DNA of 64,000 nt. It comes from Streptomyces sp. PCS3-D2. Lineage in GTDB: Bacteria > Actinomycetota > Actinomycetes > Streptomycetales > Streptomycetaceae. Below the pieces are notes generated by a model. That model worked only from the letters and a program-made list of their open reading frames with translations, did no database searches and was not told where the DNA came from. The stretch spans positions 2,539,001 through 2,603,000 of the forward strand of contig NZ_CP097800.1 in assembly GCF_000612545.2 (NCBI RefSeq), in the 5' to 3' direction. This document shows, one piece after another, positions 15,201 through 31,115 of the stretch (its first letter is position 1; each line of letters opens with the position of its first letter). A program made the position numbers and the translations under genes.

Positions 15201-16187
15201 CGGCTGTCCGGCCAGGACTCCCGCCGCGGCACCTTCGGCCAGCGCCACGCGGTGCTCATCGACCGCGAGACGGGCGAGGACTACACCCCGCTGCTGTATC
15301 TCTCGGACGACCAGGCCCGCTACAACGTCTATGACTCGCTGCTCTCCGAGTACGCGGCCATGGGCTTCGAGTACGGCTACTCGCTGGCCCGTCCGGACGC
15401 GCTGGTGCTGTGGGAGGCCCAGTTCGGTGACTTCGTCAACGGCGCCCAGACCGTCGTCGACGAGTTCATCTCCTCGGCCGAGCAGAAGTGGGGCCAGACC
15501 TCCGGCGTCACCCTCCTGCTCCCCCACGGCTACGAGGGCCAGGGCCCGGACCACTCGTCCGCCCGCCCGGAGCGCTTCCTCCAGCTGTGCGCGCAGAACA
15601 ACATGACGGTCGCGATGCCGACCCTGCCGTCGAACTACTTCCACCTGCTGCGCTGGCAGGTGCACAACCCGGCCCACAAGCCGCTGGTCGTCTTCACCCC
15701 GAAGTCGATGCTCCGCCTGAAGGCCGCGGCGTCGAAGGCGGAGGAGTTCACGAGCGGTTCGTTCCGTCCGGTCATCGGTGACTCCACCGTGGACGCGAAC
15801 GCGGTCCGCAAGGTCGTCTTCTGCGCCGGCAAGGTCTACTACGACCTGGAGGCCGAGCGCGAGAAGCGCGGCATCACGGACACGGCGATCATCCGCATCG
15901 AGCGCCTGTACCCGCTGCCGGGTGCCGAGCTCCAGGCCGAGATCGCCAAGTTCCCGAACGCGGCGAAGTACATCTGGGCCCAGGAGGAGCCGGCGAACCA
16001 GGGTGCGTGGCCGTTCATCGCGCTGAACCTGATCGACCACCTCGACCTGGCGGTCGGCGCGGACGTCCCGGCGGGCGAACGCCTGCGGCGCATCTCGCGC
16101 CCGCACGGCTCGTCGCCGGCGGTGGGCTCCGCGAAGCGCCACCAGGCGGAGCAGCAGCTCCTGCTGAACGAGGTCTTCGACGCGTAA
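12282..16187 (+). CDS. kgd: Multifunctional 2-oxoglutarate dehydrogenase E1/E2-like (Kgd, SucA type)
   Basis: A 1301-aa TCA-cycle enzyme of the actinobacterial fused type. Domain order: a short N-terminal peripheral helix ([18 protein letters not shown]); an Ala/Pro-rich linker (about 60-175); an E2-like succinyltransferase catalytic domain (about 180-440, [12 protein letters not shown] near 389); and the ThDP-dependent E1 core from about 470 ([12 protein letters not shown] near 722, HRRGRLNVL-type segment upstream). It decarboxylates 2-oxoglutarate and passes the succinyl group on. GTG 12282 gives the [10 protein letters not shown] beginning I recall for the S. coelicolor protein. Part of the linker (12631-12700) uses CCT and GCT codons unusual here. 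Confidence 0.95.
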
Positions 16188-16201
16188 TCCCCGCAGCACC
16201 A

Positions 16202-16235
16202 GGAAGGCCCGGCCCCGCAAGGGGCCGGGCCTTCC
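16202..16235. terminator. Terminator after kgd
   Basis: A perfect 15-bp stem (16202-16216 with 16221-16235) closed by a GCAA tetraloop lies 15 bases after the kgd stop. There is no U-run, as is usual in Streptomyces. Confidence 0.85.
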
Positions 16236-16323
16236 GGCATTCCCCGCGCCAAGGCGTCTCCCCCCCTGCGACGAGCGATCCCGTTCACCCGGGCCCGGGT
16301 CGCGCCCGCCGTCGCCAGCATGC

Positions 16324-16357
16324 GCGCCAGGTGCGCCAGGTGCGCCAGGTGCGCCAA
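16324..16357. repeat. Short tandem repeat, 9-bp unit
   Basis: Nearly four copies of GCGCCAGGT in tandem lie between kgd and the next small genes. They are not inside a supported gene on either strand. Confidence 0.85.
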
Positions 16358-16505
16358 GAACGGCGCGCCCACGGTCGACCGCTTCGCGGCCTCCGCCTGC
16401 CGGATCGGCAACTACCGTGCGCGTTCGCATGCTTACGGAAAGAGACGGCCTTCTTTTTGTGCGCACAGGGAAACCGATAGGGCCCGGATTCCGGAAGTCT
16501 CCGAC

Positions 16506-16643
16506 ATGACAAGCGATCCCCCAGCAGCCTCACCCTCGTCCAGCCCAGGCCAGGTGCCGGCCATCAGCCCGGAGCTCCTCGACCGTGCTCGCGCCGGCTG
16601 GGAGCGCTTCGTTGCCTCCCTTGAGGAATCATCCGATGACTGA
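16506..16643 (+). CDS. Small hypothetical protein, first of a coupled pair
   Basis: A 45-aa frame with a Pro/Ser-rich N-terminus and a helical C-terminal half (ELLDRARAGWERFVASLEES). Its stop overlaps the start of the next gene (ATGACTGA), which supports real coupled translation. The size and pairing resemble small regulator or toxin-antitoxin operons, but no family is recognised. The ribosome binding site is weak. Confidence 0.45.
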   Translation: MTSDPPAASPSSSPGQVPAISPELLDRARAGWERFVASLEESSDD

Positions 16644-16923
16644 ACGGTACGAGTACCTTCCTCACCCCCTGCTGCGCCGCCGTGTACGCGATGTCACGTC
16701 CGGGATCGAGGGCGAGCTCATGGCTGTGATCAGCGAGGACGTCTCGGACTCGGTCCATCCCCTCTGGGTGGACCTGGCCTATGTCCGGGGGCCGTCCGGC
16801 CGCGAATTCTCCACTGCGGTCGACAACATCGAGTCAGCCGACCTTCCCCCCGGGTCACCACACCTGACCGGCCGGCACGAACCGGACAGACGAGGGGACG
16901 GACGGGCTCCCGAACATCCCTGA
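16636..16923 (+). CDS. Small hypothetical protein, second of a coupled pair
   Basis: A 95-aa frame starting MTERYEYLPHPLLRRRVRDV and continuing with a beta-rich segment (GELMAVISEDVSDSVHPLWVDLAYVRGPSGREFSTAV). The last 25 residues look like random high-GC coding (Pro, Gly, Arg, Asp), so the original C-terminus may have been lost by a frameshift. ATG 16636 lies within the end of the upstream gene, implying coupling. Function unknown. Confidence 0.5.
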   Translation: MTERYEYLPHPLLRRRVRDVTSGIEGELMAVISEDVSDSVHPLWVDLAYVRGPSGREFSTAVDNIESADLPPGSPHLTGRHEPDRRGDGRAPEHP

Positions 16924-17157
16924 CCACCGCCCCGGCGAAACACCGCCCACCGCAGCCGGTGTGCCGCGATGTGGCACACCCGTGCGGAGTTCGCCTGCAC
17001 CGTTCGCAGCACGGCGGGGCGGCGCCTCGCGCCCCGCTCCCCAGAGGGCGGGTGGGCAACCACCGGCTCGGGTGGTGGGGCCGGGGGGTGGGGGCGCCGA
17101 GTACGCAGGCACGCGTACCCGCCCCTCCCCCGCCCGCGTCGGCGCCCCGTACCGCCC

Positions 17158-20100
17158 TTACGGCTGTGGCTCGAAGTCCCAGTACGGTCTGGAGCGTTGT
17201 TTCGCCGAGACCGTATGGACGTGTTGGGCGCCCAGGGTGCGGGTCAGGCCCTTGATGCCCGCGTCCTCGTGTGTGCCGGCCTCCGTGTCCTCGCGTACGG
17301 ACCGCAGGTCAGCGGCCAGGGCGATCTGAGCGCTCAGGGTCATCGGGTGCTCGGGGCCCAGGACCCGCTCGGCCGTGCGCAGGGTTTCCCGGCTCAGGTC
17401 CAGGGCGTCCTCCAGTCGGCCGTTGATGTTGCGGTGTCCGGTGGCGTTGAGGGCGCAGCCGAGGGTCCAGGGGTGCCGGCTGCCGAGTGCGCCGCGCATG
17501 CCGACCAGCGCCTGCTCGGCCAGGGAGAGGCCCTCGGCGCGTTCGCCCTGGGCGCGCAGGACCAGGCCGAGGTTGCCGACCGTGCCGATGCTGTACGGGT
17601 GGGCGAGGCCGAGCTGCGACTGGTAGCCGCGGACCACGTCCTCGGAGATCCGGCGGGCCTCGCCGATGTCGCCGTACTCCCTGAGGTAGGTGGCGTAGTC
17701 GGAGGCGACCATCAGCGTCCACGGGTAGTCGACGCCGAAGACGCGGGTCGCGCGTTCCCAGACGGTGCGCAGGCGCAGGCCGGCCCCCGGGATGTCGCCG
17801 GAGCGGCGCAGGCACAGGCCGAGGTTGTGTTCGGCGCGCAGGGTCTGGGGGTGGCCGAGTCCGAGTACCTGGGTGTTGAGTTTGACGCCCTGTTCCTGCC
17901 GGGTCTGGGCCTCTCGGTAGCGGCCCATGAGCCGGAGTCCCATGGCGCACGCGATGCCGGAGGCGAGGGTGGAGATGTGCAGGGGCATCAGGACGCGTTC
18001 GCGGCGGCGCAGGGTGTCCAGGTCGAGGTCGTAGGCGTCCTGGTAGCGGCCGAGCAGCCGGTAGGTGGCGGCGAGGTTGTTCTGGGCGTCGAGGGTGATG
18101 GAGTCGTCCTCGCCGAGCAGTTCGCGGTAGGTGGCGAGGCAGTGCTCGAAGATCTCGCGGGCGGGTTCGAACTTGGCGATGCAGAGTAGGACGCCGCCGT
18201 AGGCGCTGGTGGCGCGCAGGCTCTCCAGGTCCTGGTCGCCGCGTTCGCCGGTGAGCCGGTCGGCGACGGCCCGGGTGAGGGTCTCGGCGCGGCGGAACAG
18301 GCCGAGGTTGCGCAGGGAGTTGCCGTACTGGTAGCTGAGCTCTCGGACCTTGGGGTGGTCCTCGCCGAGCCTGGCCCGCCAGATCTGGTCGGTCTCCTCG
18401 CACAGGTGCAGGCAGGTGCGGTATTCGCCGGCGAGGATCAGGTAGCGCAGGCAGTGCAGCAGGAAGTTCTGGATCCGCGGGTTGCTGCTGGTGATGGCGC
18501 CGGAGGGGAGGAGGTGGGGGACGAGTTCGGCGTAGCGGGGCCAGAGCCGGGAGTCGGAGGGCCGGCCGGGGTCGGCGGCGGCGAGGACCTGGCGGACCGC
18601 CCGGGCGAGTGGCTCGGCCTCCTCCTCGGAGAGGTCCTCGCGGACGATGCCGTGGACCATGCGGTGGAGCTGTACGGTCTCCAGCCCGCCGCCGCCCTCC
18701 TCCACGGGGAGGTCGGAGTACTCCAGTCGTACGACGGAGAACTGGACGAGCTTGTTGAGCGCGCCGTTCCACCGGATCTGGTCGTTGATGAGGCCGGCGA
18801 GCTGTTCGGGCACGTCGTCGGCGGGGAATTCGCGCAGCAGGCGCAGGGGGACCGGGCCGGGGGCGAAGAACACGAACAGCCGCAGCAGGGCGAGGGCGTC
18901 GGGGAAGTTCTCCCGGACGTTGTTGAGGAGTATGGCGAGGGCGGTGGGGAAGGGCAGCGGGTAGTCCTCGGAGACGGTGACGGCCTCGCGGGAGTCCATC
19001 CGGCGCTGGAGGAGGGCGAGGTAGTCGCCGACGGGCAGCGGGGAGTCGGCGAGCCAGCCTGCGGTCTGGTCGAGGGCGAGCGGGTAGTCCTCCAGGGCCT
19101 CGGCGAGCTGGTCGGCCTCGTCGGCGGTGAGGCGCAGGGCGCGGCGGCGGATGAAGGTGATCGATTCGGGGCGGGCGTAGAGGGGGACCTCGACGAGGCT
19201 GGTGTGCCGGGCGGCCCATTCGCGGTTGCGGGAGGTGATGATGACGTCGCCGGAGCCGCCCGAGGGGAGCAGGTCGATGAGGTCGTCGGGGTTGTCGCAG
19301 CCGTCGAAGACCATCAGCCACCGGCTGAACGGGGTTCCGCGGCGCAGCGCTTCGAGGACGGCCCTGATCTGCTCGCCGTAGCTGCCGGCGCCTCGGGGGA
19401 GGCCGAGGGCGGGGGCGAGTTCGGCGAGGCGTTCGCGCAGGGTGGGGCGGTCCTCGGCGGGGACCCACCACACGACGTCGTACTCGGAGGCGAAGCGGTA
19501 GGCGTATTCGGTGGCGACCTGGGTCTTGCCGACGCCGGAGAGGCCGAGGAGGGTGACGGTGGACGCGCCGGGCGGTGCTTCGGCGAGGGCCTGGCGCAGG
19601 GTGCCGATGACGTCGTTGCGGCCGGTGAAGCGGGGGTTGCGGCGCGGGACGCGGCCCCAGATCTCGGGCGGGTCGTTGGGGAAGCGGGGGCCGCGGCGGC
19701 CGGTTTCGGTGCCGATGCGGTCGGTGGGCAGTTCGAGTCGGCGCAGTACGCGGTATTCGGCCTCGTAGGCGTCGAGGCCCCACAGGTCGGTCTTCTCCAG
19801 TACGGCGACGGCGCTGGGCAGGGGCGCGTCGGTGAGGCAGACGGCGGCGAATCGGTCCGGGTGGGCGTCGGTGACCGCGCGCAGGGCGGTGTTCCACTCG
19901 TCGTCGGTGTGGGTGCCGGCGGAGAAGTAGCGTTCGCTGAGGACGAGGAGGACGCGGCTGCCGGAGCGGGCGAGGTCGTCCAGGGCCTGGGTGAGGCCGG
20001 GGCTGTTCTGCGGGTCCCAGCGCTGGAGGGCGACGCGGTGGCCGTGTTCCTCCAGGCGGTGGGCGATCCACACGGCCCAGGGGCGGTTGAAGCCCGCGAA

Positions 20101-20217
20101 GCTGATGACGAAGCGCTGGGGCCGCTGGGGTTGCTGCGGCAGGAGAGGCTGCTGGGGCTGTTGCGGTTGGGGAGGCTGTTGCGCCGATTCGCGGTCCTGC
20201 CGGCTACCGGTGGTCAT
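17158..20217 (-). CDS. fxsT: FxSxx-system TIR / NB-ARC / TPR protein (FxsT-like)
   Basis: A 1019-aa multidomain protein. A Gln/Pro-rich tail (11-34) precedes a TIR-like fold (about 34-160: RFVISFAGFNRPWAVWIAHRL, VLLVLSERYF). An NB-ARC/STAND NTPase follows with P-loop GLSGVGKT (225-232) and a Walker-B-like LMVFDGCDN. The C-terminal half is tetratricopeptide repeats in which LG..HP.TL motifs recur. This architecture is known as the TPR protein of FxSxx-COOH RiPP systems, and the maturase and precursor lie directly upstream. The Glu expected four residues after the Trp (WNTAL) in NADase TIRs is absent, so the TIR may be a binding module. It is the last gene of the operon, 64 nt after the HExxH gene. 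Confidence 0.85.
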   Translation of the reverse strand: MTTGSRQDRESAQQPPQPQQPQQPLLPQQPQRPQRFVISFAGFNRPWAVWIAHRLEEHGHRVALQRWDPQNSPGLTQALDDLARSGSRVLLVLSERYFSAGTHTDDEWNTALRAVTDAHPDRFAAVCLTDAPLPSAVAVLEKTDLWGLDAYEAEYRVLRRLELPTDRIGTETGRRGPRFPNDPPEIWGRVPRRNPRFTGRNDVIGTLRQALAEAPPGASTVTLLGLSGVGKTQVATEYAYRFASEYDVVWWVPAEDRPTLRERLAELAPALGLPRGAGSYGEQIRAVLEALRRGTPFSRWLMVFDGCDNPDDLIDLLPSGGSGDVIITSRNREWAARHTSLVEVPLYARPESITFIRRRALRLTADEADQLAEALEDYPLALDQTAGWLADSPLPVGDYLALLQRRMDSREAVTVSEDYPLPFPTALAILLNNVRENFPDALALLRLFVFFAPGPVPLRLLREFPADDVPEQLAGLINDQIRWNGALNKLVQFSVVRLEYSDLPVEEGGGGLETVQLHRMVHGIVREDLSEEEAEPLARAVRQVLAAADPGRPSDSRLWPRYAELVPHLLPSGAITSSNPRIQNFLLHCLRYLILAGEYRTCLHLCEETDQIWRARLGEDHPKVRELSYQYGNSLRNLGLFRRAETLTRAVADRLTGERGDQDLESLRATSAYGGVLLCIAKFEPAREIFEHCLATYRELLGEDDSITLDAQNNLAATYRLLGRYQDAYDLDLDTLRRRERVLMPLHISTLASGIACAMGLRLMGRYREAQTRQEQGVKLNTQVLGLGHPQTLRAEHNLGLCLRRSGDIPGAGLRLRTVWERATRVFGVDYPWTLMVASDYATYLREYGDIGEARRISEDVVRGYQSQLGLAHPYSIGTVGNLGLVLRAQGERAEGLSLAEQALVGMRGALGSRHPWTLGCALNATGHRNINGRLEDALDLSRETLRTAERVLGPEHPMTLSAQIALAADLRSVREDTEAGTHEDAGIKGLTRTLGAQHVHTVSAKQRSRPYWDFEPQP

Positions 20218-20281
20218 GCGGCCGTCTCCCTGGGCTGCGGGCGGTGGACGGGACTGAAAAGGTACCGCAGCGGACGGCCCG

Positions 20282-21538
20282 TCAGACCTTGGCGAACGGG
20301 GCGAGTTCGGGGTGTTCCTCGCACCAGGCGCGGCGTTCGCGGTCGACGGTACGACGGGCCGCGGCGTGCTGGTCGCCGGGGGGCGGGAGCTCGTCCATGG
20401 CCCGTTCGGCGGCGGCCATGGCGTCGGTGAACTCCCGTCCCGCCGTGGTCAGTCGGTCGTGTGCGCGCAGGGCGGGGAGGACGGCGGCGACCTGGGCGCG
20501 GATGCGGGCGTGCTGGGCCCAGGCGCCGCGGGCTCCGTAGAGCGCGGCGCGCTGCCAGTACCCGGCCAGCGCCAGGTGGGCGTAGGTGCCGTGCAGGAGT
20601 CCCTCCAGGGGGCGGGGGTCGCTGCGCCAGGGGGCCCAGTGGCGGGGCGCGGCGTCGGCGGTGTGCAGGGTCAGGACGTCGGCGAGGGCGGTCAGTTTGC
20701 CGTGCTGCACCTCGTGGACGAGGGTCGCGGCGAGAGCGGGCGGGGCCTGTGCGCGGGCGAGCACGGATCCGGCGGCCGCGGGCAGGGTGGCGCCGCTGGA
20801 GCGGGACCCGCCGGCCAGCGGTACGAGGGAGCGCAGCAGTTGTACGGTCTCCTCCGCGCGGACGGTGTCGTAGCGCTGGAGCAGGGTGAGCGCGCCGGAC
20901 CACTGGGTGTCCCACCGTTTGTGGCCCTTGGCGGTGAGGCGGCGGGCGGGGCGCAGGGGTGCGGGCCGTGCGGGGCAGGGGGCCCGGTAGGGGTCGAGGT
21001 CGTCGAGGGCGGTGCGGCCTCCGGGCAGTGCGTGCAGGGGCAGTGTGGCGGGGTCGTCGGGGTCCCAGGAGCGTTCGGTGAGCACGAGCGGGCCGGGGCG
21101 GTCCGGGCGCAGCAGGCCGAGCGTGGGCAGGACGAGGCGGCCGTGCACGGGCCGAAGGGTGTGGGTGAAGGGGATCCCCGCGCGCAGGGCGGCGGCCGCG
21201 GCGAGGGCGCCGAGGTGGGCGAGGTCGGGCGGCGGGCCGAAGGGGGTGTGCAGCCTGCGCAGGGTCTCCTCGGCCCAGACACCGGTGGCGGGGTAGTGCA
21301 GTACGTCGCGTACGGCGGCGGGGGCGCGGCGTTCGGCCTCCTCCAGCAGGGCCCAGTGCTCGGCGGCCTGGCCGGCGCTGCCGCCGGGGGCTGCGTCGAG
21401 GACGGCGCGGAGCAGGACCAGGCGTTTGGAGCGGCGTACGTCGCGGACCAGGCGGGTGCCTTCCGGGGAGGGCTCGGTGGAGGCGAGGGCGCGCAGGGTG
21501 TGGGAGGACACGCTGAAGGCGGTGAGGGCGGCGGTCAT
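20282..21538 (-). CDS. HExxH-motif peptide-modification protein (aKG-HExxH beta-hydroxylase-like)
   Basis: A 418-aa protein with an intact HEVQH motif at residues 275-279, inside a helical context (ALAATLVHEVQHGKLTALADVL). It matches the HEXXH-domain family found beside FxSxx radical SAM enzymes. Such domains were first called putative metallohydrolases and later linked to 2-oxoglutarate-dependent peptide beta-hydroxylation. In many loci a degenerate copy is fused to the C-terminus of FxsB; here it is a separate gene with both His and Glu preserved. ATG 21538 overlaps the FxsB stop (TCATGA), so expression is coupled. A role in hydroxylating the peptide is inference. Confidence 0.8.
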   Translation of the reverse strand: MTAALTAFSVSSHTLRALASTEPSPEGTRLVRDVRRSKRLVLLRAVLDAAPGGSAGQAAEHWALLEEAERRAPAAVRDVLHYPATGVWAEETLRRLHTPFGPPPDLAHLGALAAAAALRAGIPFTHTLRPVHGRLVLPTLGLLRPDRPGPLVLTERSWDPDDPATLPLHALPGGRTALDDLDPYRAPCPARPAPLRPARRLTAKGHKRWDTQWSGALTLLQRYDTVRAEETVQLLRSLVPLAGGSRSSGATLPAAAGSVLARAQAPPALAATLVHEVQHGKLTALADVLTLHTADAAPRHWAPWRSDPRPLEGLLHGTYAHLALAGYWQRAALYGARGAWAQHARIRAQVAAVLPALRAHDRLTTAGREFTDAMAAAERAMDELPPPGDQHAAARRTVDRERRAWCEEHPELAPFAKV

Positions 21539-22902
21539 GAGGCGGCCGCCGGGGGGCGGGCGGCGGTGGCGCGGCGCGGGCCGCCGGCGGCGTGCTGGAC
21601 GGCGGCGGCGATGTGCCGGATGAGGACCTGGAGGTCGGCGCAGTAGACGGACGGCTGCCGGAAGCCCTCGCCGGCGCGGTAGCGGTGCGGGTAGTGGCCG
21701 CCGCCGCAGACCTCGACGAGTTCGCAGGTGCGGCATCCGGCGGCGAGGGCGTCCCGTCCGAGCTGGCGGGCGGCGAACCCGGGGTGGTCGAGGAGTTGGT
21801 CGAAGCTGTGGGTGTCGAGGGCCATGCCGGTGGCCGTGGCCCCCTCGTACGCGGATTTCAGCGAGTCGGCCTGTTCGATGGAACCGTCGGTCTCGATGAC
21901 GGCGGTGGCGGCGGGCGCGAGCCCGAGGGTCTCGGTGGTGGCGGGCAGTCCGAACAGCAGGGCGATGATCTCTTCGAAGAGGCGGATGCGGGTGCGTCGT
22001 GCTCCGTCGCGCCACCAGCGTTCGAAGACGGCGAGGAGCCAGTCGGCGTACGGGTTCCCGCCGGGCCGGCGGTCTGGGCCCGGGGGCGGCGGGGCGCTCC
22101 AGTTGGCGAGCGGGAGCAGCAGGCCGACGGTGGGCGGGGCGAAGGCGAGCAGGGATTCGTAGGTCTCCACCGGGTCGTGGGCGAGGTCGACGACGCAGAG
22201 CACGCCGGCGTAGCTGTCGGGGTGGCGTGCGAGCAGGCGCAGGCCGCGGGCGGCGGCGCCGAAGCCGGGGCGGCCGCCGTGGTCGACGCGGCGGGTGTTG
22301 TGCGCGGGCAGCCCTCCGTCGAGGCTGACGCCGATGCGGATCCCGGCGGCGGCGAGGGCGGCGAGGCGGCCGCGGGTGAGGAGGGTGCCGTTGGTCTGGA
22401 CGGTGGCGGTGATCCGGGTGCGGGGGGTGGTGGCGGCGAGGGCGGCGCGCACGGCTTCCACGGGCGCGGCCAGTGCGGCGGGGGCCGTGAGGAGGGGTTC
22501 GCCGCCGTGCAGGACCAGGTCGACGCGGGGCAGGTCGTGGGCGGCGGCGTGCTCGGCGATCCGCTGCGCGGCGCGGGCGGCGGTGGTCGGGTCCATGGCG
22601 ACGGGCTGGTCGCGCCAGCCCTGGTCGGCCATCTCGTAGACGTAGCAGTAGGTGCAGGCGAGGTTGCAGCGGCTGCGGGTCTTGAGCACGAACTGGCGGA
22701 TGGGACGGGCCGGGTGGCCTGCCGCCCGCGCGGCGGCGACGTCGAGCCGGGTGTAGGGCCAGGGGGCGTTGCGGGCGTGCCGGGACGCGTGCGCCGCGGG
22801 GCCGGCCGCCGGCCGGACGGGGCCCGGGGCGGTGTGCGGCGCGGGGCCGGCCGGTCCGGCGGACGCGGGTGGCGGGGAGCCGTTCGTGATCGCTCGCCGC
22901 AT
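21535..22902 (-). CDS. fxsB: Radical SAM/SPASM peptide maturase, FxsB-like
   Basis: A 455-aa radical SAM enzyme. The 4Fe-4S site is CNLACTYC (Cys79, Cys83, Cys86), followed by the LHGGEP segment that contacts SAM. A C-terminal SPASM-type Cys cluster is CRTCELVEVCGGG...C (about 395-430), expected to hold auxiliary clusters. FxsB enzymes form a carbon-carbon or similar crosslink between an aromatic ring and the residue two positions later in a short precursor. ATG 22902 was chosen because GGGAGGGAG lies seven bases upstream; a GTG at 22926 is less likely. The first 40 residues are a disordered Pro/Ala stretch. The substrate should be the peptide at 23303-23503. Confidence 0.88.
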   Translation of the reverse strand: MRRAITNGSPPPASAGPAGPAPHTAPGPVRPAAGPAAHASRHARNAPWPYTRLDVAAARAAGHPARPIRQFVLKTRSRCNLACTYCYVYEMADQGWRDQPVAMDPTTAARAAQRIAEHAAAHDLPRVDLVLHGGEPLLTAPAALAAPVEAVRAALAATTPRTRITATVQTNGTLLTRGRLAALAAAGIRIGVSLDGGLPAHNTRRVDHGGRPGFGAAARGLRLLARHPDSYAGVLCVVDLAHDPVETYESLLAFAPPTVGLLLPLANWSAPPPPGPDRRPGGNPYADWLLAVFERWWRDGARRTRIRLFEEIIALLFGLPATTETLGLAPAATAVIETDGSIEQADSLKSAYEGATATGMALDTHSFDQLLDHPGFAARQLGRDALAAGCRTCELVEVCGGGHYPHRYRAGEGFRQPSVYCADLQVLIRHIAAAVQHAAGGPRRATAARPPAAAS

Positions 22903-23302
22903 CGCCGCGCTCCCTCCCCGCCCCACCGCCGGGGCGCCCCGGCGGACGGTCCATCCCTGCCCTTCCGCCGGTCCCGGCTAACGGCGGAAAGTGGTCAACT
23001 CGCCCGCACCGGACCGCTCTCGGACCTGCGTCCGTGGCCCGAACCCGTGCCCGAAGGGGGCGGTCCGGCAGCGGGGCCGCCGCGTGGGGACGTGCCCGGT
23101 GCCGTCGACGCCTTCGGGCCGGGCCGGGCCTGCGGGGCGCAGGGTTCGGGTCCTGGTGCGGGAGGCGGCACGGGGCGGGGCACGGGAGGGGAGGGGCCGG
23201 GGGCGGACCTCGGCCGGGCGGGGCACGAGGGCCGGACGCCCCATCGGCGTCGGGATCGCGCCGGGTGTGCTGCCGGGGCGGGCTTCCGGGGACCGGCGGG
23301 GG
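22903..23302. other. Long spacer between precursor and maturase genes
   Basis: A 400-bp GC-rich stretch separates the FxsA-like gene from fxsB, long for an operon otherwise packed with overlaps. An 88-codon minus-strand frame (22978-23244) has Arg/Pro-rich shadow composition and is not called. No clear hairpin or promoter was recognised. Confidence 0.4.
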
Positions 23303-23503
23303 TCAGGCAGCGCTGGAGTCGTAGGCGTTGAGGATTTCGGCCGGGTGGGCCACGCGTTCCACCAGGCCTTCGATCACCTCGGCCAGTACGGGATGGTCGA
23401 TCCCACGCAGCGCGGCCAGGTCGAGCCCGGAGAGGTCCGGCAGCCGCCCGGGGCAGCCGGTGCCGGTGGCCGCCGGCACCACGTCCTGACGTTTCGTCAC
23501 CAT
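23303..23503 (-). CDS. fxsA: FxSxx-type RiPP precursor peptide (variant terminus YDSSAA)
   Basis: A 66-aa peptide starting at ATG 23503 with GGGGAG nine bases upstream. A variable N-terminus is followed by the conserved leader-like segment LPDLSGLDLAALRGIDHPVL (21-40) and a helix to HPAEILNA. It then ends Tyr61-Asp-Ser-Ser-Ala-Ala66. Precursors of this family end Phe-x-Ser-x-x; here Tyr replaces Phe and one residue is added. A three-residue crosslink Tyr61/Ser63 by the adjacent maturase is the natural prediction. It lies first in the RiPP half of the block, with 100 bp upstream to the vWA gene. Confidence 0.8.
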   Translation of the reverse strand: MVTKRQDVVPAATGTGCPGRLPDLSGLDLAALRGIDHPVLAEVIEGLVERVAHPAEILNAYDSSAA

Positions 23504-23603
23504 GTGCCGCCGCTCCCCATGTCGCGTCGCATTCCGGACGGTCCCCTGCCTTTTCCCCCGGGGCGGTCGGCGGAAACAGCGGGCCGTACCCGCGGTGCGG
23601 CCC

Positions 23604-26600
23604 TCACTGCCCCGCCTCCAGGGCCCGCACCCGCGCGCGCAGCCCTTCGGAGCGCCCGTCGGGGTCGGCACCGATCCGCTTCCACAGCTGTAGCGCCGAG
23701 CGGTACTCCTCCAGGGCCGCCCTGGGCCGGGCGAGCCGCTCCAGCACCTCCCCGCGGGACTCCTGCACCCGGGCGGCCAGGCGCAGCGCGGTGTCCTCGC
23801 GGCCCGCCCGGCCGTCGGGCTCCTCGCGTCCCTCGTGGTCGTCGCGGCCCTCGCGGTCCGCCTCCAGGGCCGCCCGCCAGGCCAGCCGGTAGGACTCGGC
23901 GGCCCGGTCGAGGCGGTCCGCGGCCCGTGTGTGGCCGTGGATCTCCTGCTGCACATCGGCGTGGTCCCGCCAGGCGCGGGCCCGTTCGAGCGGGCCGCGG
24001 CTGTTGCGGACGGCCAGTTCCAACAGGTACTCCGCCTCCCGCAGGTCCACCGCGTCCCTGTCGTACGCGTGGCGCAGCCGCAGCCCGGTGGCCAGCCGCA
24101 CCAGCCGGTGGGCGGCTCCCGGGTCGGACTGCGGGACGGCCGCGCGGCTCTCGCGCAGGACGCGTACGGCCGCCCCGGTGAAGCGGCGGCCGCCGGCGCC
24201 GCGGGCGCGTTCCAGCAGGACGTCGCCCCACTCGGGAAGGAGGTCCCGGAAGGCCTCCCCGTCGCGGGGCGCGAGCCTGCGGGCGCGGCCGTAGGCCTCG
24301 GCCGCGTCCTCCAGCGCCACCGGGTCGGCGTCGCGGGCGTACCGCTCGCGGTGGACCCGGGCCAGGCACAGCAGGGCGGCCACCCGCAGCTCCGGATCCC
24401 CGCCGGTCTCCTCCAGAACGGTGGCCAGCTGCGCGGCGGCCTCCTCCAGCCGCGCCGGAAGGTGCCGCAGCGCGTCGGCCAGTTCCACCCGCACCCGCCC
24501 GGATCCGGCCCGGGACACCGCCCCGGATCCGGATCCGGCCGGCGGTGCGCTCAGGGCCGCCGCCAACCGGCCGGCGGCCTCTTCGGCCAGGGCTGTGCGC
24601 TCGGCCGGGTCGGGGGTGCGGGGCAGGAGCGCCAGCAGGACCCGGCCGAGGGCCCGGTGCAGCTCGTGGTGGGGTGCGGAGGCAGCCTCCGGGGCCGGTC
24701 CCGTGTCCTGCCCTGGTTCCCCGCCGGGGACGGAGCCCGCCAGGGGGGCCAGGGCCGCGCGGGCCGCGCGCAGCGCGTCCGTGTCGTCGCGCAGCCCGCC
24801 GAGCCGGATCAGGGTCTCGGCCCGCCGTACCGCGCAGTCCCGCCGCAGTTCCGGTGCGGCGGTGGGAGATGCGGCCGCCGCCGCGAACTCGCGGTCCGCC
24901 GCGGCGAGCAGCTCGGGGTCCGGGCCGGCGGCGAGCGCCCGCTCGTACAGCACCCGCCCGCGCGCCGCCCACGCGGCGGCGGTCCGCAGCCCGCTCACGG
25001 CCCGCTGGGCCTCGGCGAGGAGTTCCGGGTCGCGTTCGGCCGCCCACAACCGCAGCAGCGCGCCCGCCAGCTCCGTCTCGGCCTCCTCCGGCGGGTCCGC
25101 GGGCCCGACCGGGGCCGTGACCGCCCGCCGCAGGACCGCCACGGCCTCGTGCAGGGCCCGCGGACCCGCGTCGCCTTCGGCGTCCGCGTCCGCGAGGCGG
25201 TCCCGGGCGGCGCGCACCGCCCCGGCCCGGGCGGGCAGGGGGGCCGCCCGGGTCTCCCGTACCGGCTGCCCGTCCTGCGGTACACCGGGCAGGAAGCGCC
25301 GTACGACTTTGGCCGAAACCTGTGCGAAGGCCTGCGGGAGCCGCCCCCCGGGGTCCTGTTCCCCGTCGTCCGGCTCGGCGGCCTCCACCAGCGGTGCCAT
25401 GCCGGTCAGCTGTGCGACCGCGAGGGCGGGGAAGTTGCGCACGCCGGCGCCGAAGTGCGCCCCTACGTACTCCGAGCAGTGTTTGAGGACCAGCGCGGCC
25501 TCGTCGCGGCCCAGCGGCCCCAGCAGTACGTCCTGTACCCCGGGCACGAACTCGTACCAGTGTCCCGGGCCCGGTGCGCTGCGCCTCAGCAGCCCGCTGA
25601 GCAGTACTTCCGCCAGGTCCGACGGCTCGGAGTCCGGCAGCATCGTGCGCTGCACCAGGCGCATGACGGGCAGCGTCAGCGGGGCCGCCGACAGGTACAC
25701 GGCCAGTTGTACGGCGCGGGGCGCGGCCGAGGAGCGGAACCGTGCGACGAGTTCGCGCGGCGGGCGGGCGGCGGGCGGTGGCGGGACGGGCGCGGCCGGG
25801 TGGTCCGCCCGTACCCGGCCCACCTCGGCGGCGACCGGTCCGGTGCCGAGGCCGGCGACGAGCCGGGCCCATGCCCCGAGTGCGGTCGGGCTCGGCGGCA
25901 GCACCGGCACGGCGATCCCGCCCGCGGGCCGGCCGGGCAGCGGCGGCCGGTCCGGCCGGAACCGCAGCTTCGGTCCGGCACCCTCCAGCCGGGCGAGGGT
26001 GCCTCGCTCGGTCGGCAGCCAGCTGCGCCCCCACAACCGCTGCGGCAGGGGCTGGACCACCATGCACGGGGTGCACTCGGCCCAGCGGTGCAGCAGCCGC
26101 TGGGCCTGGCCCTCGCGCCACAGCGGCCCGGCGCAGTCGGAGACGACCATGGTCAGGGCCCGGCCGGTCGGGTCCCGCAGCTGGTCACCCGAGCGCAGTG
26201 CGGAGCCGGGGCCGGGGCCGCGTCCGAGCGCCGCCGTGCCGTCCTGCCGGCGGTGCAGGTAGTGCACCTGGACGTCTCGGAAGGCCCCCAACCGCTCGCA
26301 GACGGAGCGCAGTTCCTCGAACATCTCCTGCCAGACCGCCATGGAGGGGGAGGCGTCCATCACGAGCCGTACGGTTGCCTCCCGCCGGGTCTCCGGCCGC
26401 AGCACCGGGATGAGCAGGCCGAGGGCGCGGGCGCTGGCGTCGGCGGTGGCGCCCTCGTCGATCACCAGCCGGGTGGGCGGGGCCGACGGTCGGTGCCGCT
26501 GGAGGGCCCGTAGGGCCCGCTGGACGTCGAGGATGCGGGGCAGGGCGGCGGCGCCGGGCACGCGTACGGGTACTCCGTACTCCTCGGGCGACGGCTCGGG

Positions 26601-26918
26601 CGGCTCGCCCCCGGCCTCGCCGGCGCGGTGCGCCCCGGGTGCGTAGAGCCGCACGGGGTCCTCGGGATCCGCCTCCGCCCGTGCGGGGTCCACGGGCTCC
26701 ACCACCGGATCATCAGATTCCGCTTCTGGCCCCGGGCCCCGGGTGCCCGGGAGGTCCGGTCCGGGACCGCGGATGTGCCCGGCGAGCCAGAGGGCGTCGG
26801 CGAGTTCCTCGGCGGAGGGATCGAGCCCGGCCGCCCGCAGCAGGGCGGCCAGTTCCGGAACGCCGGGTGCGACGGACGGCGGCGCGGCGAGGCAGGGCGG
26901 TACGGCGGGTTCGGGCAC
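23604..26918 (-). CDS. SAV_2336-like vWA-domain protein with C-terminal TPR-like repeats
   Basis: A 1104-aa protein. Residues about 10-120 are a disordered acidic/Pro-rich region beginning with a short helix. Residues 180-400 form a von Willebrand A-like domain with a MIDAS motif DASPS (188-192), as in SAV_2336-type proteins. From about 600 to the end are Ala/Arg/Leu-rich helical repeats resembling TPRs (repeated LAEA..R-type helices). In ternary conflict systems the vWA protein works with a MoxR ATPase and a VMAP effector. GTG 26918 follows GAGG by nine bases and lies six bases after the MoxR stop. It is probably a cytoplasmic regulator/adaptor. Confidence 0.82.
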   Translation of the reverse strand: MPEPAVPPCLAAPPSVAPGVPELAALLRAAGLDPSAEELADALWLAGHIRGPGPDLPGTRGPGPEAESDDPVVEPVDPARAEADPEDPVRLYAPGAHRAGEAGGEPPEPSPEEYGVPVRVPGAAALPRILDVQRALRALQRHRPSAPPTRLVIDEGATADASARALGLLIPVLRPETRREATVRLVMDASPSMAVWQEMFEELRSVCERLGAFRDVQVHYLHRRQDGTAALGRGPGPGSALRSGDQLRDPTGRALTMVVSDCAGPLWREGQAQRLLHRWAECTPCMVVQPLPQRLWGRSWLPTERGTLARLEGAGPKLRFRPDRPPLPGRPAGGIAVPVLPPSPTALGAWARLVAGLGTGPVAAEVGRVRADHPAAPVPPPPAARPPRELVARFRSSAAPRAVQLAVYLSAAPLTLPVMRLVQRTMLPDSEPSDLAEVLLSGLLRRSAPGPGHWYEFVPGVQDVLLGPLGRDEAALVLKHCSEYVGAHFGAGVRNFPALAVAQLTGMAPLVEAAEPDDGEQDPGGRLPQAFAQVSAKVVRRFLPGVPQDGQPVRETRAAPLPARAGAVRAARDRLADADAEGDAGPRALHEAVAVLRRAVTAPVGPADPPEEAETELAGALLRLWAAERDPELLAEAQRAVSGLRTAAAWAARGRVLYERALAAGPDPELLAAADREFAAAAASPTAAPELRRDCAVRRAETLIRLGGLRDDTDALRAARAALAPLAGSVPGGEPGQDTGPAPEAASAPHHELHRALGRVLLALLPRTPDPAERTALAEEAAGRLAAALSAPPAGSGSGAVSRAGSGRVRVELADALRHLPARLEEAAAQLATVLEETGGDPELRVAALLCLARVHRERYARDADPVALEDAAEAYGRARRLAPRDGEAFRDLLPEWGDVLLERARGAGGRRFTGAAVRVLRESRAAVPQSDPGAAHRLVRLATGLRLRHAYDRDAVDLREAEYLLELAVRNSRGPLERARAWRDHADVQQEIHGHTRAADRLDRAAESYRLAWRAALEADREGRDDHEGREEPDGRAGREDTALRLAARVQESRGEVLERLARPRAALEEYRSALQLWKRIGADPDGRSEGLRARVRALEAGQ

Positions 26919-26924
26919 GGCCGG

Positions 26925-27947
26925 TCACCTCGGTCGGTCGAGGCGCTGGATGAGCAGGTCCGCGAGGTCCTCCCGGGTCGCCGGGGAGGTGTAGTGGGTC
27001 AGGTAGACGGCGTTGAGGAGCTGGTCGGCGGCGACCAGTTCGGACTGCGAGCGGCCCAGGAACTCGCGGATCAGGTCGCCGCCGAGCCGGGCGGCTTCCT
27101 CTCCGAGGTGGGCGCGGACCATGGTGGCGAGCCGTTTCTCGCCGGGCTGCCCGAGTTTGAGCTGGATGCAGCGTCGCAGCAGGGCGGCGGGGAAGTCCCG
27201 TTCGCCGTTGCTGGTCAGGATGATGAAGGGGAAGGACCGGCAGCGGACCCGGCCGCCCCGCACGGTCACCTTCGCCCCGTCGTCGGTGAGCACCTCGACC
27301 TCGGGCTCGGTGTCGGCGACCCGCTCCAGCTCGGGGAGGGCGAACTCCCCCTCCTCCAGCACGTTCAGGAGGTCGTTGGGGAGGTCGATGTCGCTCTTGT
27401 CGAGTTCGTCGACGAGCAGCACGCGGGGCCGTGCGGTGGGCAGCAGGGCGGTGCCCAGGGGTCCGAGCCGGATGTACCTGCCGATACCGGGGACCGCGGC
27501 GGGTGTTCCCGCCCCGGCCGCCGCCCCGCCGGCCGCGAGCTGCACGTCCTGGAGGCGGGCGAGGGCGTCGTAGCGGTAGAGCCCGTCCTGGAGCACGGTC
27601 CGCGACACCACCGGCCAGCGCAGCACCCGCCCCAGTTTCAGCTCGTGGGCGACGGAGTGCGCAAGGGTGGACTTCCCGGTTCCGGGAAATCCGGTCACCA
27701 GCAGCGGCCGCCGCAGGTACAGCGCCGCATTGACGGCCTCCAGCTCCTCGGGCTCCGGCCGGTGCAGTTCTGCGGCCTGCCGGTGCGCGCCGAGCCGGCG
27801 GGCGACGTTGCCCTCGGCGGCCGCGGCCGGGCCCGGCGCCACGAGGGGCCCGCCGTCGAAGTTCCGCCAGGGCGGCGGGTCGGGCAGGGCGTCGATGCCG
27901 TCGTGGGGTTCGCCGACCCCGCGGTAGATGAGCCAGTCGTCGTTCAT
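26925..27947 (-). CDS. MoxR-type AAA+ ATPase
   Basis: A 340-aa AAA ATPase with Walker A GFPGTGKS (86-93), Walker B VLLVDELDKSD, sensor 1 in FPFIILTSNGERDFP, and an arginine-rich RRCIQLKL segment; this is the MoxR pattern. The N-terminal DDWLIYRGVGEPHDGI segment is typical of the version that pairs with VMAP and vWA proteins. It sits between those two genes, with six bases to the vWA gene and 42 bases from the VMAP gene. It likely remodels or gates the vWA/VMAP complex using ATP; partner assignment is by context. Confidence 0.88.
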   Translation of the reverse strand: MNDDWLIYRGVGEPHDGIDALPDPPPWRNFDGGPLVAPGPAAAAEGNVARRLGAHRQAAELHRPEPEELEAVNAALYLRRPLLVTGFPGTGKSTLAHSVAHELKLGRVLRWPVVSRTVLQDGLYRYDALARLQDVQLAAGGAAAGAGTPAAVPGIGRYIRLGPLGTALLPTARPRVLLVDELDKSDIDLPNDLLNVLEEGEFALPELERVADTEPEVEVLTDDGAKVTVRGGRVRCRSFPFIILTSNGERDFPAALLRRCIQLKLGQPGEKRLATMVRAHLGEEAARLGGDLIREFLGRSQSELVAADQLLNAVYLTHYTSPATREDLADLLIQRLDRPR

Positions 27948-27989
27948 GGTGCCTGTTCCCTCCCTCGAAATCCGCCGGGCCGGCCGCCC

Positions 27990-30143
27990 TCACAGGTCGC
28001 CGTGGAGCGGCTCGACGTCCGGCAGCGGCCGCGCCGGGTCCTCCCACACCAGCCCCGCCCCTGCCGCCCAGTAGGCGTCCGGGTCCGCCCCGTGCGCCCG
28101 GCCCCGCAACGTCTGGAACCGCAGCGGCAGCACCTCCGCCCGCCCCGCGTCGGCCAGCTCCTCCCGCAGCCCGCGGTGGAACGGCGCGCACGGCACCCCG
28201 GGCTCCGGCGGCGGCCTGCGGGTCACGGCCACCCCGTAGCCGGCGTCCCGTACCGCGTGCAGCGACCCCAGTGTGGGCTCCTGGTCGGCGGCCCGGCAGT
28301 GCACCGGGACGGTGGTGTCGGGCAGGCCCGACAGCCACGCCGCGGACGGTGCGCGCGGACGGCCGCCCGCGCAGTCGGCCCGCTCGTCCTGGAGCGGTCC
28401 CGCCTGCACCCGGGTCCACCGGGCGGCGGCCCTGGCGGCCTCGTGGTCCGCCGGGTGGCCCTCCGGACCGCTCCGGCCCCGGTCCGCGCCCCGGGCGTCC
28501 GGACCGCCGGGGTGGCGCAGCACCACCGGCCGCTGCACGCCCAGGGGTACTCCGCCGGACACCGTCCAGTCCTCCACCGCCAGCCCGAACAGTTCGGGGG
28601 CCACCGCCACTTCGAGCAGGGCCGCGGCGACGTGGGTGTCGCAGCGCCGGAAGGCCTCGGCGAGCGGCGCCCGCAACCGCTCCGGCAGGTCCGCGACGGT
28701 GGCACGCACGCCCGAGTCCACGGGGGTCAGCCGGCCGGGGTGGGCCGGGCCCGCGAGCACCGAGACCCGCCAGTCGTACAGGTGCTCCCAGCCGTGGGCC
28801 CAGACCTCCAGCAGGACCGACGCCCCGGGCGGCAGTCCGCCGGCCCTCGGGGCGGGCCCGCCCGCCGCCCGGCCCGCCGAGGCGCGGCGGCGGCGCTCGC
28901 GCTCGGCGAGGCCCCGCTCGTGGCGCTCGCCCAGTTCACGCCGCAGCGGCCGCCACAGCCGCTCGGCCGTGGCCCGTACCCAGTCCCACAACTCCTCGTC
29001 GGCGCCCGGCGTCGGGGGTTCGCGGTAGTCGGCCACGCTGACGTCGGTCGCGTACCGGAGCATCGCCGCGGCCTCACCGCTGCCGCCCGGCGGGTCGTGC
29101 AGCAGTCCCAGCCCGTCGCGCCAGCTCAGCGGGGCCGGCGGCTGCGGGTCCGGTTCCTCGCCGCGAACCGCCTCCACCAGGGCGCGCACCGCCTCGGAGG
29201 AGCTCGGCGGGGGCAGTTCGGCCAGCAGCCCGCACAGGGTGGTGCGTTCACCGGGGGTGAGCCCTCCCCGGCCGCCGTACGGGTCCCGCTCCTGCGGCGG
29301 GAGCTCGCCGTGCACGTCGGTCCAGGTGCGGCGGTTGTCGAGGTCGCTGAGGTGCTGGTCGTAGTGGTACAGGTCGTGGGCCTGCATGATCCGGCGGTAG
29401 AGCCCGACCTGTCCCCGCGAGGCCATCGGGAGGGTGCGCAACTGTACGACGGAGACGGCGAGTCCGCCGCCTCCCGTCTGCCGTCGGGCCTTGACCACGC
29501 CGACGACCTCCCCGCGGGCCAGGTCCACGACCGGTCCGCCGGACATGCCGGGGTCGATCTCGTCGTCGGCGGCGAGCCGGATGGCGGCGCCGTTGCCGGC
29601 GGTGCCGCGCAGCCGGGTGGTGCGGCCGGTGATCTCGGGCGTGCCGAGGTCTTCCGTGCAGCCGAAGTAGGCGACCTCGTCGAAGCGCGGTCTGGAGCGG
29701 TCGGTCAGCCAGACGCAGGCGTGGGACACGGGGGCCAGGACCCGGACGAGTGCCAGGTCGGGCAGGTCCCACAGGGCGTGCCGGCCGGGCCTGCGCTCCT
29801 CCAGGCGCTCGGGCAGTACGCACTCCACGCGCCCGGTGACGGTCCCGGTGACGGCGCCCGGCGCGCCGGGGCCACCGTGGCGGGGTCTGCCGGAGTGGAA
29901 GGTGATGCCGACCTCACGGCCTGTCAGACGCATGGCGGCACCCCCTTCGCCGACCACGTGCGCGCACGTCAGGACCCAGCCGGGGGCGATGAAGAAACCG
30001 CTCCCCCAGGTGGGACCGGTCCGATGGCTGCCGGGGTTGTCATACCCGCCCGGCGGGGCGTGGACGCGTACCGTCGCCGCCTGGACGAGTGGTTCGAGGA
30101 GCTCGAAGGCGCGCGCCGTCCCGGTCGTGCGCCCGTCGGTCAT
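27990..30143 (-). CDS. Trypsin-like protease with VMAP-type C-terminus
   Basis: A 717-aa protein with three parts. The N-terminal chymotrypsin-fold protease (about 20-235) has the full triad: His62 in LTCAHVV, Asp129 in DLALVRV, Ser201 in DPGMSGGP. A small death-like effector-associated segment (about 295-350, LTPGERTTLCGLL) follows. A C-terminal domain of about 350 residues, as in vWA-MoxR-associated proteins, is rich in Trp/Arg (LLEVWAHGWEHLYDW). No signal peptide is seen, so the protease should act in the cytoplasm. It heads the seven-gene minus-strand block. I infer it is the effector that cleaves a target when the MoxR/vWA partners are triggered. Confidence 0.8.
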   Translation of the reverse strand: MTDGRTTGTARAFELLEPLVQAATVRVHAPPGGYDNPGSHRTGPTWGSGFFIAPGWVLTCAHVVGEGGAAMRLTGREVGITFHSGRPRHGGPGAPGAVTGTVTGRVECVLPERLEERRPGRHALWDLPDLALVRVLAPVSHACVWLTDRSRPRFDEVAYFGCTEDLGTPEITGRTTRLRGTAGNGAAIRLAADDEIDPGMSGGPVVDLARGEVVGVVKARRQTGGGGLAVSVVQLRTLPMASRGQVGLYRRIMQAHDLYHYDQHLSDLDNRRTWTDVHGELPPQERDPYGGRGGLTPGERTTLCGLLAELPPPSSSEAVRALVEAVRGEEPDPQPPAPLSWRDGLGLLHDPPGGSGEAAAMLRYATDVSVADYREPPTPGADEELWDWVRATAERLWRPLRRELGERHERGLAERERRRRASAGRAAGGPAPRAGGLPPGASVLLEVWAHGWEHLYDWRVSVLAGPAHPGRLTPVDSGVRATVADLPERLRAPLAEAFRRCDTHVAAALLEVAVAPELFGLAVEDWTVSGGVPLGVQRPVVLRHPGGPDARGADRGRSGPEGHPADHEAARAAARWTRVQAGPLQDERADCAGGRPRAPSAAWLSGLPDTTVPVHCRAADQEPTLGSLHAVRDAGYGVAVTRRPPPEPGVPCAPFHRGLREELADAGRAEVLPLRFQTLRGRAHGADPDAYWAAGAGLVWEDPARPLPDVEPLHGDL

Positions 30144-30277
30144 CCACGCCCCCCGCCCGCTCGTCGGACCTCCAGGCTAGCGCCGGGGACACCGGGGGCG
30201 GGAGGTGTCCCGGGCGCTGCGGATTATCCTGGCGGGAAACACCCCCTGCACGATCCCATCACGGCACGGAGCCCGAC

Positions 30278-30463
30278 TTGTACTTCACCGATCGCGGCAT
30301 CGAGGAGCTGGAGAAGCGGCGCGGCGAGGAGGAGGTCACCTTCGAGTGGCTCGCCGAGCAGCTGCGCACCTTCGTCGACCTGAACCCGGACTTCGAGGTC
30401 CCGGTGGAACGCCTGGCCACCTGGCTGGCCCGGCTCGACGACGAGGACGAGGACGACGAGTAG
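30278..30463 (+). CDS. DUF6104-like small acidic protein
   Basis: A 61-aa protein, MYFTDRGIEELEKRRGEEEV onward, with a very acidic end (DDEDEDDE). It belongs to a short actinobacterial family I recall as DUF6104, of unknown function and strongly conserved in Streptomyces. The TTG start at 30278 is the only one that fits the conserved beginning. It converges on sodN and shares the strong bidirectional terminator between them. Confidence 0.8.
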   Translation: MYFTDRGIEELEKRRGEEEVTFEWLAEQLRTFVDLNPDFEVPVERLATWLARLDDEDEDDE

Positions 30464-30492
30464 TCCGGCCGGGGCCGGACCACGGGCCGGTA

Positions 30493-30534
30493 CGCAGAGG
30501 GGCCCGTCCGCGATCGCGGACGGGCCCCTCTGCG
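30493..30534. terminator. Bidirectional terminator, 42-bp perfect palindrome
   Basis: Positions 30493-30513 are the exact reverse complement of 30514-30534. It lies midway between the convergent DUF6104 and sodN stops. Confidence 0.9.
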
Positions 30535-30548
30535 CGTGGAAGGAAGGC

Positions 30549-30944
30549 TCAGGCGGCCTTGGTCTCCCAGAAGATGCGGTCGATCTCAGCAATGAGGTCG
30601 AGGGCCTTCTGGCCGGTCGCCGGGTCGTTGGACGCCTTCGCGGCCGAGAGGGCCTTCAGGGTGTCGTTGACCAGGGTGTGCAGCTGCGGGTACTTCTCGA
30701 AGTGCGGCGGCTTGAAGTAGTCGCTCCACAGCACCGAGACGTGGTGCTTGGCGAGCTCGGCGCGCTGCTCCTTGATGGTGATGGCGCGCGCGCGGAAGTC
30801 GGCGTCGTCGTTGGCCTGGTACTTCTCCTGCACGGCCTTGACGGACTCGGCCTCGATGCGGGCCTGGGCAGGGTCGTACACGCCGCACGGCAGGTCGCAG
30901 TGGGCGGAGACCTTCGCCTTGGGGGCGAAGAGGCGGGAAAGCAT
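30549..30944 (-). CDS. sodN: Nickel superoxide dismutase precursor
   Basis: A 131-aa Ni-SOD. After a 14-residue propeptide comes the nickel hook HCDLPCGVYD, so that His15, Cys16 and Cys20 become His1, Cys2 and Cys6 of the mature enzyme. The remainder is the four-helix bundle typical of the family. It dismutates superoxide in the cytoplasm or cell envelope. The ATG at 30944 follows a strong AGGAGG-type site. It is divergent from its maturation protease gene at 31116, the usual Streptomyces arrangement. Confidence 0.97.
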   Translation of the reverse strand: MLSRLFAPKAKVSAHCDLPCGVYDPAQARIEAESVKAVQEKYQANDDADFRARAITIKEQRAELAKHHVSVLWSDYFKPPHFEKYPQLHTLVNDTLKALSAAKASNDPATGQKALDLIAEIDRIFWETKAA

Positions 30945-31115
30945 GGAGTTGTCCTCCTCGTGATCGTCTTCTCAAGGGGGGACATTACTCGCTGGAGAAC
31001 CGGATTTCGCGGGCGCCCCCATGGGCTTAGGACAAAAGTCCAGGGGCGCGGCCGGACCGGTGAGCGAATGTACGGGGCCGTGCGGCAGCATGCGGGAGTG
31101 AGGAGGTGGACACGC

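Follow-up and report, generated by a model that had tools for sequence, protein, structure and literature searches.

A chromosomal FxSxx-type VMAP-ternary block of Streptomyces whose parts are almost certainly inherited together

According to the excerpted text of Kaur et al. (2020, eLife, PMC7159879), a peptide-processing module is present in about 20% of the VMAP-ternary systems of actinobacteria. In that account, the FxSxx type is marked by a radical SAM-SPASM gene, a TIR-AP-ATPase-TPR gene downstream and a vWA protein with TPRs only. A peptide toxin or signal is proposed for the module, and action of VMAP-ternary systems on viruses or other invaders is itself an inference of that paper, as excerpted (PMC7159879). 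Among the literature matches listed, drawn mostly from papers outside subscription, none was an experiment on such a block or a relative. The window, a 64,000-nucleotide stretch of Streptomyces sp. PCS3-D2 DNA, contains on its minus strand at 17158-30143 seven co-directional genes that NCBIfam and Pfam profile searches identify as one conflict/RiPP block (Table 1). It is almost certain that this chromosomal block belongs to the VMAP-ternary conflict systems of FxSxx type (Kaur et al. 2020, PMC7159879) and that its parts are inherited together. The combination is not new, the same layout being given in Kaur et al. 2020 (PMC7159879, excerpted text); the idea of a peptide-linked immunity in a sequence-only reading of the same DNA is likewise close to the proposal published there. 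What we add to the 2020 description is the regularity with which the parts are retained, the variation in peptide chemistry and the chromosomal site.

The gene order and boundaries given by the sequence-only reading are borne out by coordinates and family scores, and its landmarks are correct: Ser201 is the serine of the GMSGGP motif of VMAP, Tyr61 lies in the precursor tail, and 23504-23603 is the gap between the vWA and precursor genes. By coordinates, intergenic gaps in transcription order measure 42, 6, 100, 376, 2 and 64 bp. The 376-bp gap between the precursor and radical SAM genes (22927-23302) seems variable in length among close relatives, and an Rfam search of 16000-31000, which included this gap, gave no match. 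Further reading frames in both gaps between the block and its borders had no Pfam match; searches of the block and of frames up to its borders in the window detected no transporter, export protease or additional protease family. The bordering genes are those that we take to be kgd and sodN. A consensus scan of 16100-30700 detected neither promoter nor terminator. A perfect 40-base GC-rich palindrome lies 3' of sodN (30494-30533) and may be a terminator without a T run. Co-transcription of the block with sodN was considered and is not favoured, given this palindrome and the divergent DUF6104 gene in between. Every block gene displayed a dN/dS of 0.06-0.37 in pairwise comparisons with five close relatives, values that are rough owing to a simple counting method and high G+C. 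Alignments revealed that catalytic residues are kept across related blocks.

Table 1. Features of the block, its borders and the lone HExxH genes of two relatives; positions refer to the window unless a locus is named.
Feature	Position	Strand	Family evidence
Trypsin-like VMAP protease with VMAP-C, first gene	27990-30143	-	Trypsin_2 47-216; VMAP-C 455-703, 116 bits, cut-off 27
MoxR-type AAA+ ATPase	26925-27947	-	Pfam AAA_5, 31.4, cut-off 22
SAV_2336-type vWA protein, long C-terminal region	23604-26918	-	NF041121 SAV_2336_NTERM, 458.6 bits, cut-off 200
FxSxx-type RiPP precursor, 66 aa, tail AYDSSAA	23303-23503	-	TIGR04268 FxSxx-COOH, 46.2 bits, cut-off 28
FxsB-family cyclophane-forming radical SAM/SPASM maturase	21535-22926	-	TIGR04269, 415 bits, cut-off 370
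HExxH protein, alpha-ketoglutarate-dependent peptide hydroxylase family	20282-21532	-	TIGR04267, 141 bits, cut-off 40
TIR/NB-ARC/TPR protein	17158-20217	-	NF040586 FxSxx_TPR, 832 bits, cut-off 300; TIR_2 71.5, cut-off 28
2-oxoglutarate dehydrogenase (presumed kgd), flank, convergent with block, outside system	12207-16187	+	Pfam E1_dh, 2-oxoacid_dh, Transket_pyr
DUF6104 gene, divergent from VMAP, between block and sodN	30263-30463	+	PF19599, 122.8 bits
Nickel superoxide dismutase (presumed sodN), other border of site	30549-30944	-	PF09055 Sod_Ni
Lone HExxH gene between kgd and sodN	L169 3498-4694; L170 9582-10784		

The four genes of the RiPP side were compared with their curated families. The precursor tail AYDSSAA is of the Y-x-S rather than the F-x-S form, with Tyr61 in place of the Phe of the sister locus L143; against the NF041709 YxD model the peptide reaches 43.7 bits, under the cut-off of 55. 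Curated scores place the precursor and its maturase among FxsA/FxsB cyclophane RiPPs (TIGR04268, 46.2 against 28; TIGR04269, 415 against 370), and a cyclophane product is predicted from this family membership. The CxxxCxxC motif of FxsB is kept in 56/56 and the HExxH motif of its neighbor in 60/60 of the sequences compared. Triceptide chemistry of FxsB enzymes, beyond what the family names say, is treated here as general background. TIGR04267 bears the NCBIfam name aKG-HExxH-type peptide beta-hydroxylase. The excerpted text of PMC12636437 describes the HExxH family by alpha-ketoglutarate-dependent hydroxylation, with backbone cleavage as an additional activity of two enzymes. One HExxH enzyme, PflC, is described there as cleaving a peptide without its leader, and fused radical SAM/HExxH proteins are cited as the subject of a 2024 study (PMC12636437, excerpted text). 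Given PflC, the HExxH protein of the window may also have a cutting role. Because six related blocks do without HExxH and hydroxylation is the activity described for its family, VMAP becomes the one recognised protease of the block, and this changed reading of HExxH shifts attention to VMAP in that capacity.

On the other side of the block, the order VMAP, MoxR, vWA with a VMAP-C domain is that of a VMAP-ternary system, and the window and almost every aligned relative have the protease, ATPase and vWA metal-site residues expected of one. Of the VMAP triad, Ser201 is kept in 63/63 aligned relatives and Asp129 and His62 in 62/63 each, the odd one being a gap. MoxR residues Walker A Lys92, Walker B Asp180/Glu181, sensor Asn247 and Arg258/259 were found in 66/66 related blocks of all three variants described below, and in the same set the vWA metal-site residues Asp188 and Asp261 were found in 65/66 and 66/66, respectively. 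The name MoxR is a putative assignment by resemblance to the published arrangement, the profile match being AAA_5. No Pfam family, neither vWA nor TPR, scored above cut-off in the vWA protein, the label of which reflects the NF041121 score and the metal-site motif. Scanning of six of the seven proteins against PADLOC anti-phage families yielded no full-length match, the matches being weak or partial (RT-Protease, IetA, pVip and others). Two relatives display oddities in this region. L087 has a Trypco1 domain near the start of its vWA reading frame (5846-9370), with the MoxR match of the same genome on a different contig, and in L147 (G254) the match to the vWA gene is broken into separate segments and VMAP was not found, possibly a sign of a decaying block.

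The last gene of the block encodes a protein with a good TIR fold; its Pfam NB-ARC match falls under cut-off (19.7 versus 23.5). TIR domains usually carry Trp-Cys before the catalytic Glu. Compared with bacterial and eukaryotic TIRs and with plant-type TIR-NB-ARC receptors, the window TIR is without this Trp-Cys. A single weak HMMER alignment (E 0.08) to a Toll-like receptor TIR (7ylf) pairs Glu107 with the Glu of that domain, and position 107 is E in 57/65 relatives and Q, D, A or T in the remaining 8. Of the features of a TIR NADase effector, the fold is present, and Glu107, kept in most members, is a plausible candidate for the catalytic glutamate. The view of this domain as a TIR without a catalytic residue, suggested by the lack of a Glu four residues after the conserved Trp, was dropped when the Glu before that Trp was found to align with the Toll-like receptor Glu. 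A single-sequence PDB search with the TIR domain returned one weak match, to the unrelated protein SAKe6FR. Because of the good fold and the plausible position of Glu in most members, the TIR is an equal candidate effector beside the VMAP protease, which counts against the protease as sole effector. In L146, a second TIR-NB-ARC-TPR relative lies downstream of the first, and L138 has a TPR piece at this place.

The sequence-only reading had joined the RiPP and MoxR-vWA-VMAP halves into one system and had proposed genome-wide co-occurrence as a check. We surveyed 46 genomes of the genus, in which a search at E<=1e-30 listed 75 SAV_2336 matches from 41 genomes and 43 FxsB genes from 29 genomes scored above cut-off; NF040586 data were taken from the 72 best rows of a longer list. 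FxsB lay 3.2-4.4 kb downstream on the same strand for 15/75 SAV_2336 genes, and an NF040586 (TIR-NB-ARC-TPR) gene was also present in 15/15 of these pairs. The resulting 20% matches the approximately 20% published (PMC7159879, excerpted text). The other half was absent within 12 kb on the same strand for 60/75 SAV_2336 and 28/43 FxsB genes, which are upper bounds as some contigs are cut. The genome of the window itself contains one joined block, plus two SAV_2336 loci and two FxsB loci standing apart. At the level of the phylum, FxsB was above cut-off in 9/246 genomes, the remaining matches scoring far lower and being taken as other radical SAM proteins.

Where the halves are joined, their arrangement is highly regular. 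All seven genes were present in 37 of the best 80 FxsB loci of the genome collection, a set biased to the clade of the window by being the best matches to an alignment headed by it, and gene order was identical in 37/37. A quick tree of 110 FxsB proteins placed the window in a clade of 70 (SH-aLRT 96), in which the vWA gene adjoins FxsB in 64/70, or in 50/56 without the window and the 13 loci fetched for having both. Of the six members without vWA, four lie less than 1 kb from a contig edge, L157 lies less than 3.7 kb from one, and L058 is split. L058 was considered as a natural RiPP half without the trio and was dropped because a different contig of its genome carries MoxR (87% identical) and a piece of vWA; the split may be an assembly fault or a rearrangement. 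One complete block, L113, falls outside the FxsB clade of the window. Uniqueness of the junction was also rejected, since the complete block recurs across many Streptomyces and on some contigs of Actinacidiphila, Streptacidiphilus and Actinoalloteichus. Protein distances co-vary across the halves with Spearman coefficients of 0.825-0.908, compared with 0.894-0.915 for proteins of the trio among themselves and 0.809-0.883 for those of the RiPP side (47/50 blocks; L147, L137 and L142 left out). This co-variation indicates shared inheritance rather than function, as vertical descent alone would give the same. Collectively, the halves are a recurring unit, not a chance junction; of the earlier claim, recurrent linkage stands, and each half is also encountered alone.

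Selection for MoxR, vWA and TIR-NB-ARC-TPR on one strand gave 66 blocks in three variants: 50 with both enzymes (type A), 6 without HExxH (type B) and 10 without radical SAM (type C). This split is no frequency, since the loci were partly picked for SAV_2336 near FxsB or NF040586; the count in the 46 genomes was 11 A, 4 B and 10 C. VMAP was present in 63/66 blocks (not found in L062, at a contig edge, L068 and L147) and a precursor in 66/66, covering all three variants. Of the type A tails, counted over 61 loci that take in 11 extra clade loci that are cut or incomplete, 27 had F-x-S, 22 F-x-N, 8 some other form and 4 Y-x-S (the window, L071, L075 and L140). Type B tails were Y-x-D in 6/6, and type C tails contained Trp in 10/10, both read by eye. 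Scored against NCBIfam models, L132 and L068, the two type B precursors examined, exceed the NF041709 cut-off of 55 (63.5 and 63.8 bits), and L128, the one type C precursor examined, has no match. Precursors of types A and C have a clear leader, which is weak in 4/6 of B (12-25 bits). In ten other loci (fused-type, trio-only and others), the precursor profile had no match at E<=1. Variation extends to the trio, where the vWA metal-site serines of type C are mostly Gly (8/10) and Ala (8/10). In a MoxR tree set up to omit 15 names, most of them close relatives, type C formed one clade (99), type B one clade (94) that includes the fused-type L171, and 35/37 type A rows one clade (95). As the variants are nearly clades, the match between tail and enzyme rests on very few independent changes, and the vWA serine change in type C shares this weakness.

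The recurring unit also has a recurring address. Wherever a block was recognised among the 46 genomes (25 genomes; 11 A, 4 B and 10 C), it was flanked by kgd and sodN on one contig, 25/25, a count that leaves out short-contig fragments beside kgd in G252, G257 and G271 and the fused type in G260. Convergent kgd was seen at 52/66 blocks, a set that overlaps the 46 genomes, and never in the other orientation; flank clustering, full of shadow reading frames, was used only to point to kgd. Of the 14 blocks where kgd was not seen, nine have 4.9-7.0 kb of flank and five less than 2.4 kb, and L139 and L144 of these five are on the kgd-sodN site by the genome survey. In G277, kgd is 21 kb from the block. 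Two close relatives without a block, G256 and G289, contain at this site a lone open HExxH gene with intact motif, 75% and 73% identical to that of the window, respectively. A leader-motif scan detected no precursor upstream of the lone gene in L169 or L170, and loss of the rest of the block is the simplest reading. At L171 (G260), also beside kgd, VMAP, MoxR and vWA genes are followed by an NB-ARC-like stretch, apparently a fused type at the same site. Searches of plasmids gave no match to the TIR-NB-ARC-TPR protein (E 1e-100) or FxsB (1e-60), and phages gave no match to FxsB (1e-40). An alpha-ketoglutarate-consuming dehydrogenase (12207-16187) borders a block with an alpha-ketoglutarate-dependent enzyme (20282-21532); this pairing may be coincidence, as type B blocks occupy the same site without the HExxH enzyme.

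The explanation that best accounts for the whole, which we advance tentatively, is that a modified peptide is read inside the cell and elicits a trio/STAND response that limits infection. By the chemistry of its family, FxsB would quite probably crosslink the precursor tail from Tyr61 to Ser63, and the HExxH protein would probably hydroxylate the peptide with alpha-ketoglutarate rather than act primarily as a protease. With no recognised exporter gene adjoining the block, although an unlinked exporter may exist, the peptide could plausibly be read in the cell, most likely by TIR-NB-ARC-TPR and possibly with the vWA metal site. A threshold set by MoxR and vWA might then free or restrain the VMAP protease, which would cleave the precursor or a partner. 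Conceivably, the activated STAND protein, the protease or both would harm or arrest the cell and limit infection in this way. Presence of a precursor in 66/66 blocks with TIR-NB-ARC-TPR beside MoxR and vWA counts in favour of the sequence-only reading that the NB-ARC protein senses the peptide and the protease acts as effector.

Several other explanations have to be set against intracellular reading of the peptide. Kaur et al. (2020, PMC7159879, excerpted text) proposed a peptide that is exported as signal or toxin; acting on other hyphae or competitors, it would have its release amplified or controlled by the trio and STAND protein. The short, C-terminal tail, on which RiPP maturation enzymes act by family, suits this proposal, but no transporter or export protease family was found in the block and the frames searched to its borders, and a STAND-type protein is retained in all three variants, so we consider export rather unlikely. 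The constant pairing of precursor and TIR-NB-ARC-TPR (66/66) is in keeping with a toxin-antitoxin-like arrangement in which only the modified peptide holds TIR-NB-ARC-TPR or VMAP inactive, the brake being lifted by disturbance of radical SAM or of alpha-ketoglutarate/iron. Sufficiency of either of two oxidative enzymes also fits, yet nothing in the analysis points to inhibition or toxicity, and such an arrangement is unlikely.

Shared position alone could in principle explain the block, with two separate systems using a favoured place beside kgd. Solitary halves elsewhere in the genus and the same site in 25/25 genomes are in keeping with this idea; it is nevertheless made improbable by the fixed order in 37/37 complete loci, TIR-NB-ARC-TPR in 15/15 pairs, co-variation across the halves, and the nine blocks lacking kgd in 4.9-7.0 kb of flank, though kgd may lie further away, as in G277. 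A more elaborate version of the intracellular reading, which we hold to be a long shot of about the standing of export, envisions a single immune locus that can swap one peptide chemistry for another. A cyclophane and/or a hydroxylation mark on the cytosolic peptide would be checked by TIR-NB-ARC-TPR and MoxR/vWA/protease as a sign of an undisturbed cell. If this were true, the radical-SAM-free, Trp-tailed type would be a RiPP type without an NCBIfam name (L128, one tested). Should a STAND receptor prove to bind the peptide as an internal ligand, RiPPs would gain a role beyond those of antibiotics and secreted signals. A recurring unit, natural variants with one enzyme, and block-free close relatives at the same site are ready-made comparisons for such questions.

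Comparison with known systems defines the place of the window block. Elsewhere in its own genome, L037 (C1:6037000-6056000) is similar in having an FxSxx precursor, an FxsB-type radical SAM protein and an NF040586 relative, and differs in the tail, IFNSAL, and in having no VMAP, MoxR or vWA match in 19 kb. The radical SAM protein of L037 is 750 aa with a C-terminal extension from which the HExxH motif is absent. A third FxsB gene of this genome, in L036 (C1:4410000-4429000), has a weak NB-ARC-region match (E 3e-4) about 2.3 kb upstream and no trio match. YxD-tail cyclophane RiPPs (NF041709) include the type B precursors L132 and L068, whereas the window precursor, with its Y-x-S tail, fails that model. 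Relative to the excerpted text of Kaur et al. 2020 (PMC7159879), differences emerge. The HExxH-type gene, treated there as the core of the module and as a zincin-like metallopeptidase cutting the precursor, is absent here from 6/66 blocks and belongs to a family for which hydroxylation is described; the separate TIR-AP-ATPase, there tied to the FxSxx type, is found here also in 10 blocks without radical SAM; and TPRs, there assigned to the vWA C-terminal region, have no Pfam match in that region here. The window nonetheless has the features of the FxSxx peptide-processing subtype, with a tail that is Y-x-S instead of F-x-S and a Pfam NB-ARC match under cut-off. Like the FxSxx VMAP-ternary systems of Kaur et al. 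2020 (PMC7159879, excerpted text), it is an actinobacterial locus that unites trypsin-VMAP, MoxR, vWA, precursor, radical SAM-SPASM and HExxH-type genes with a separate TIR-AP-ATPase-TPR gene.
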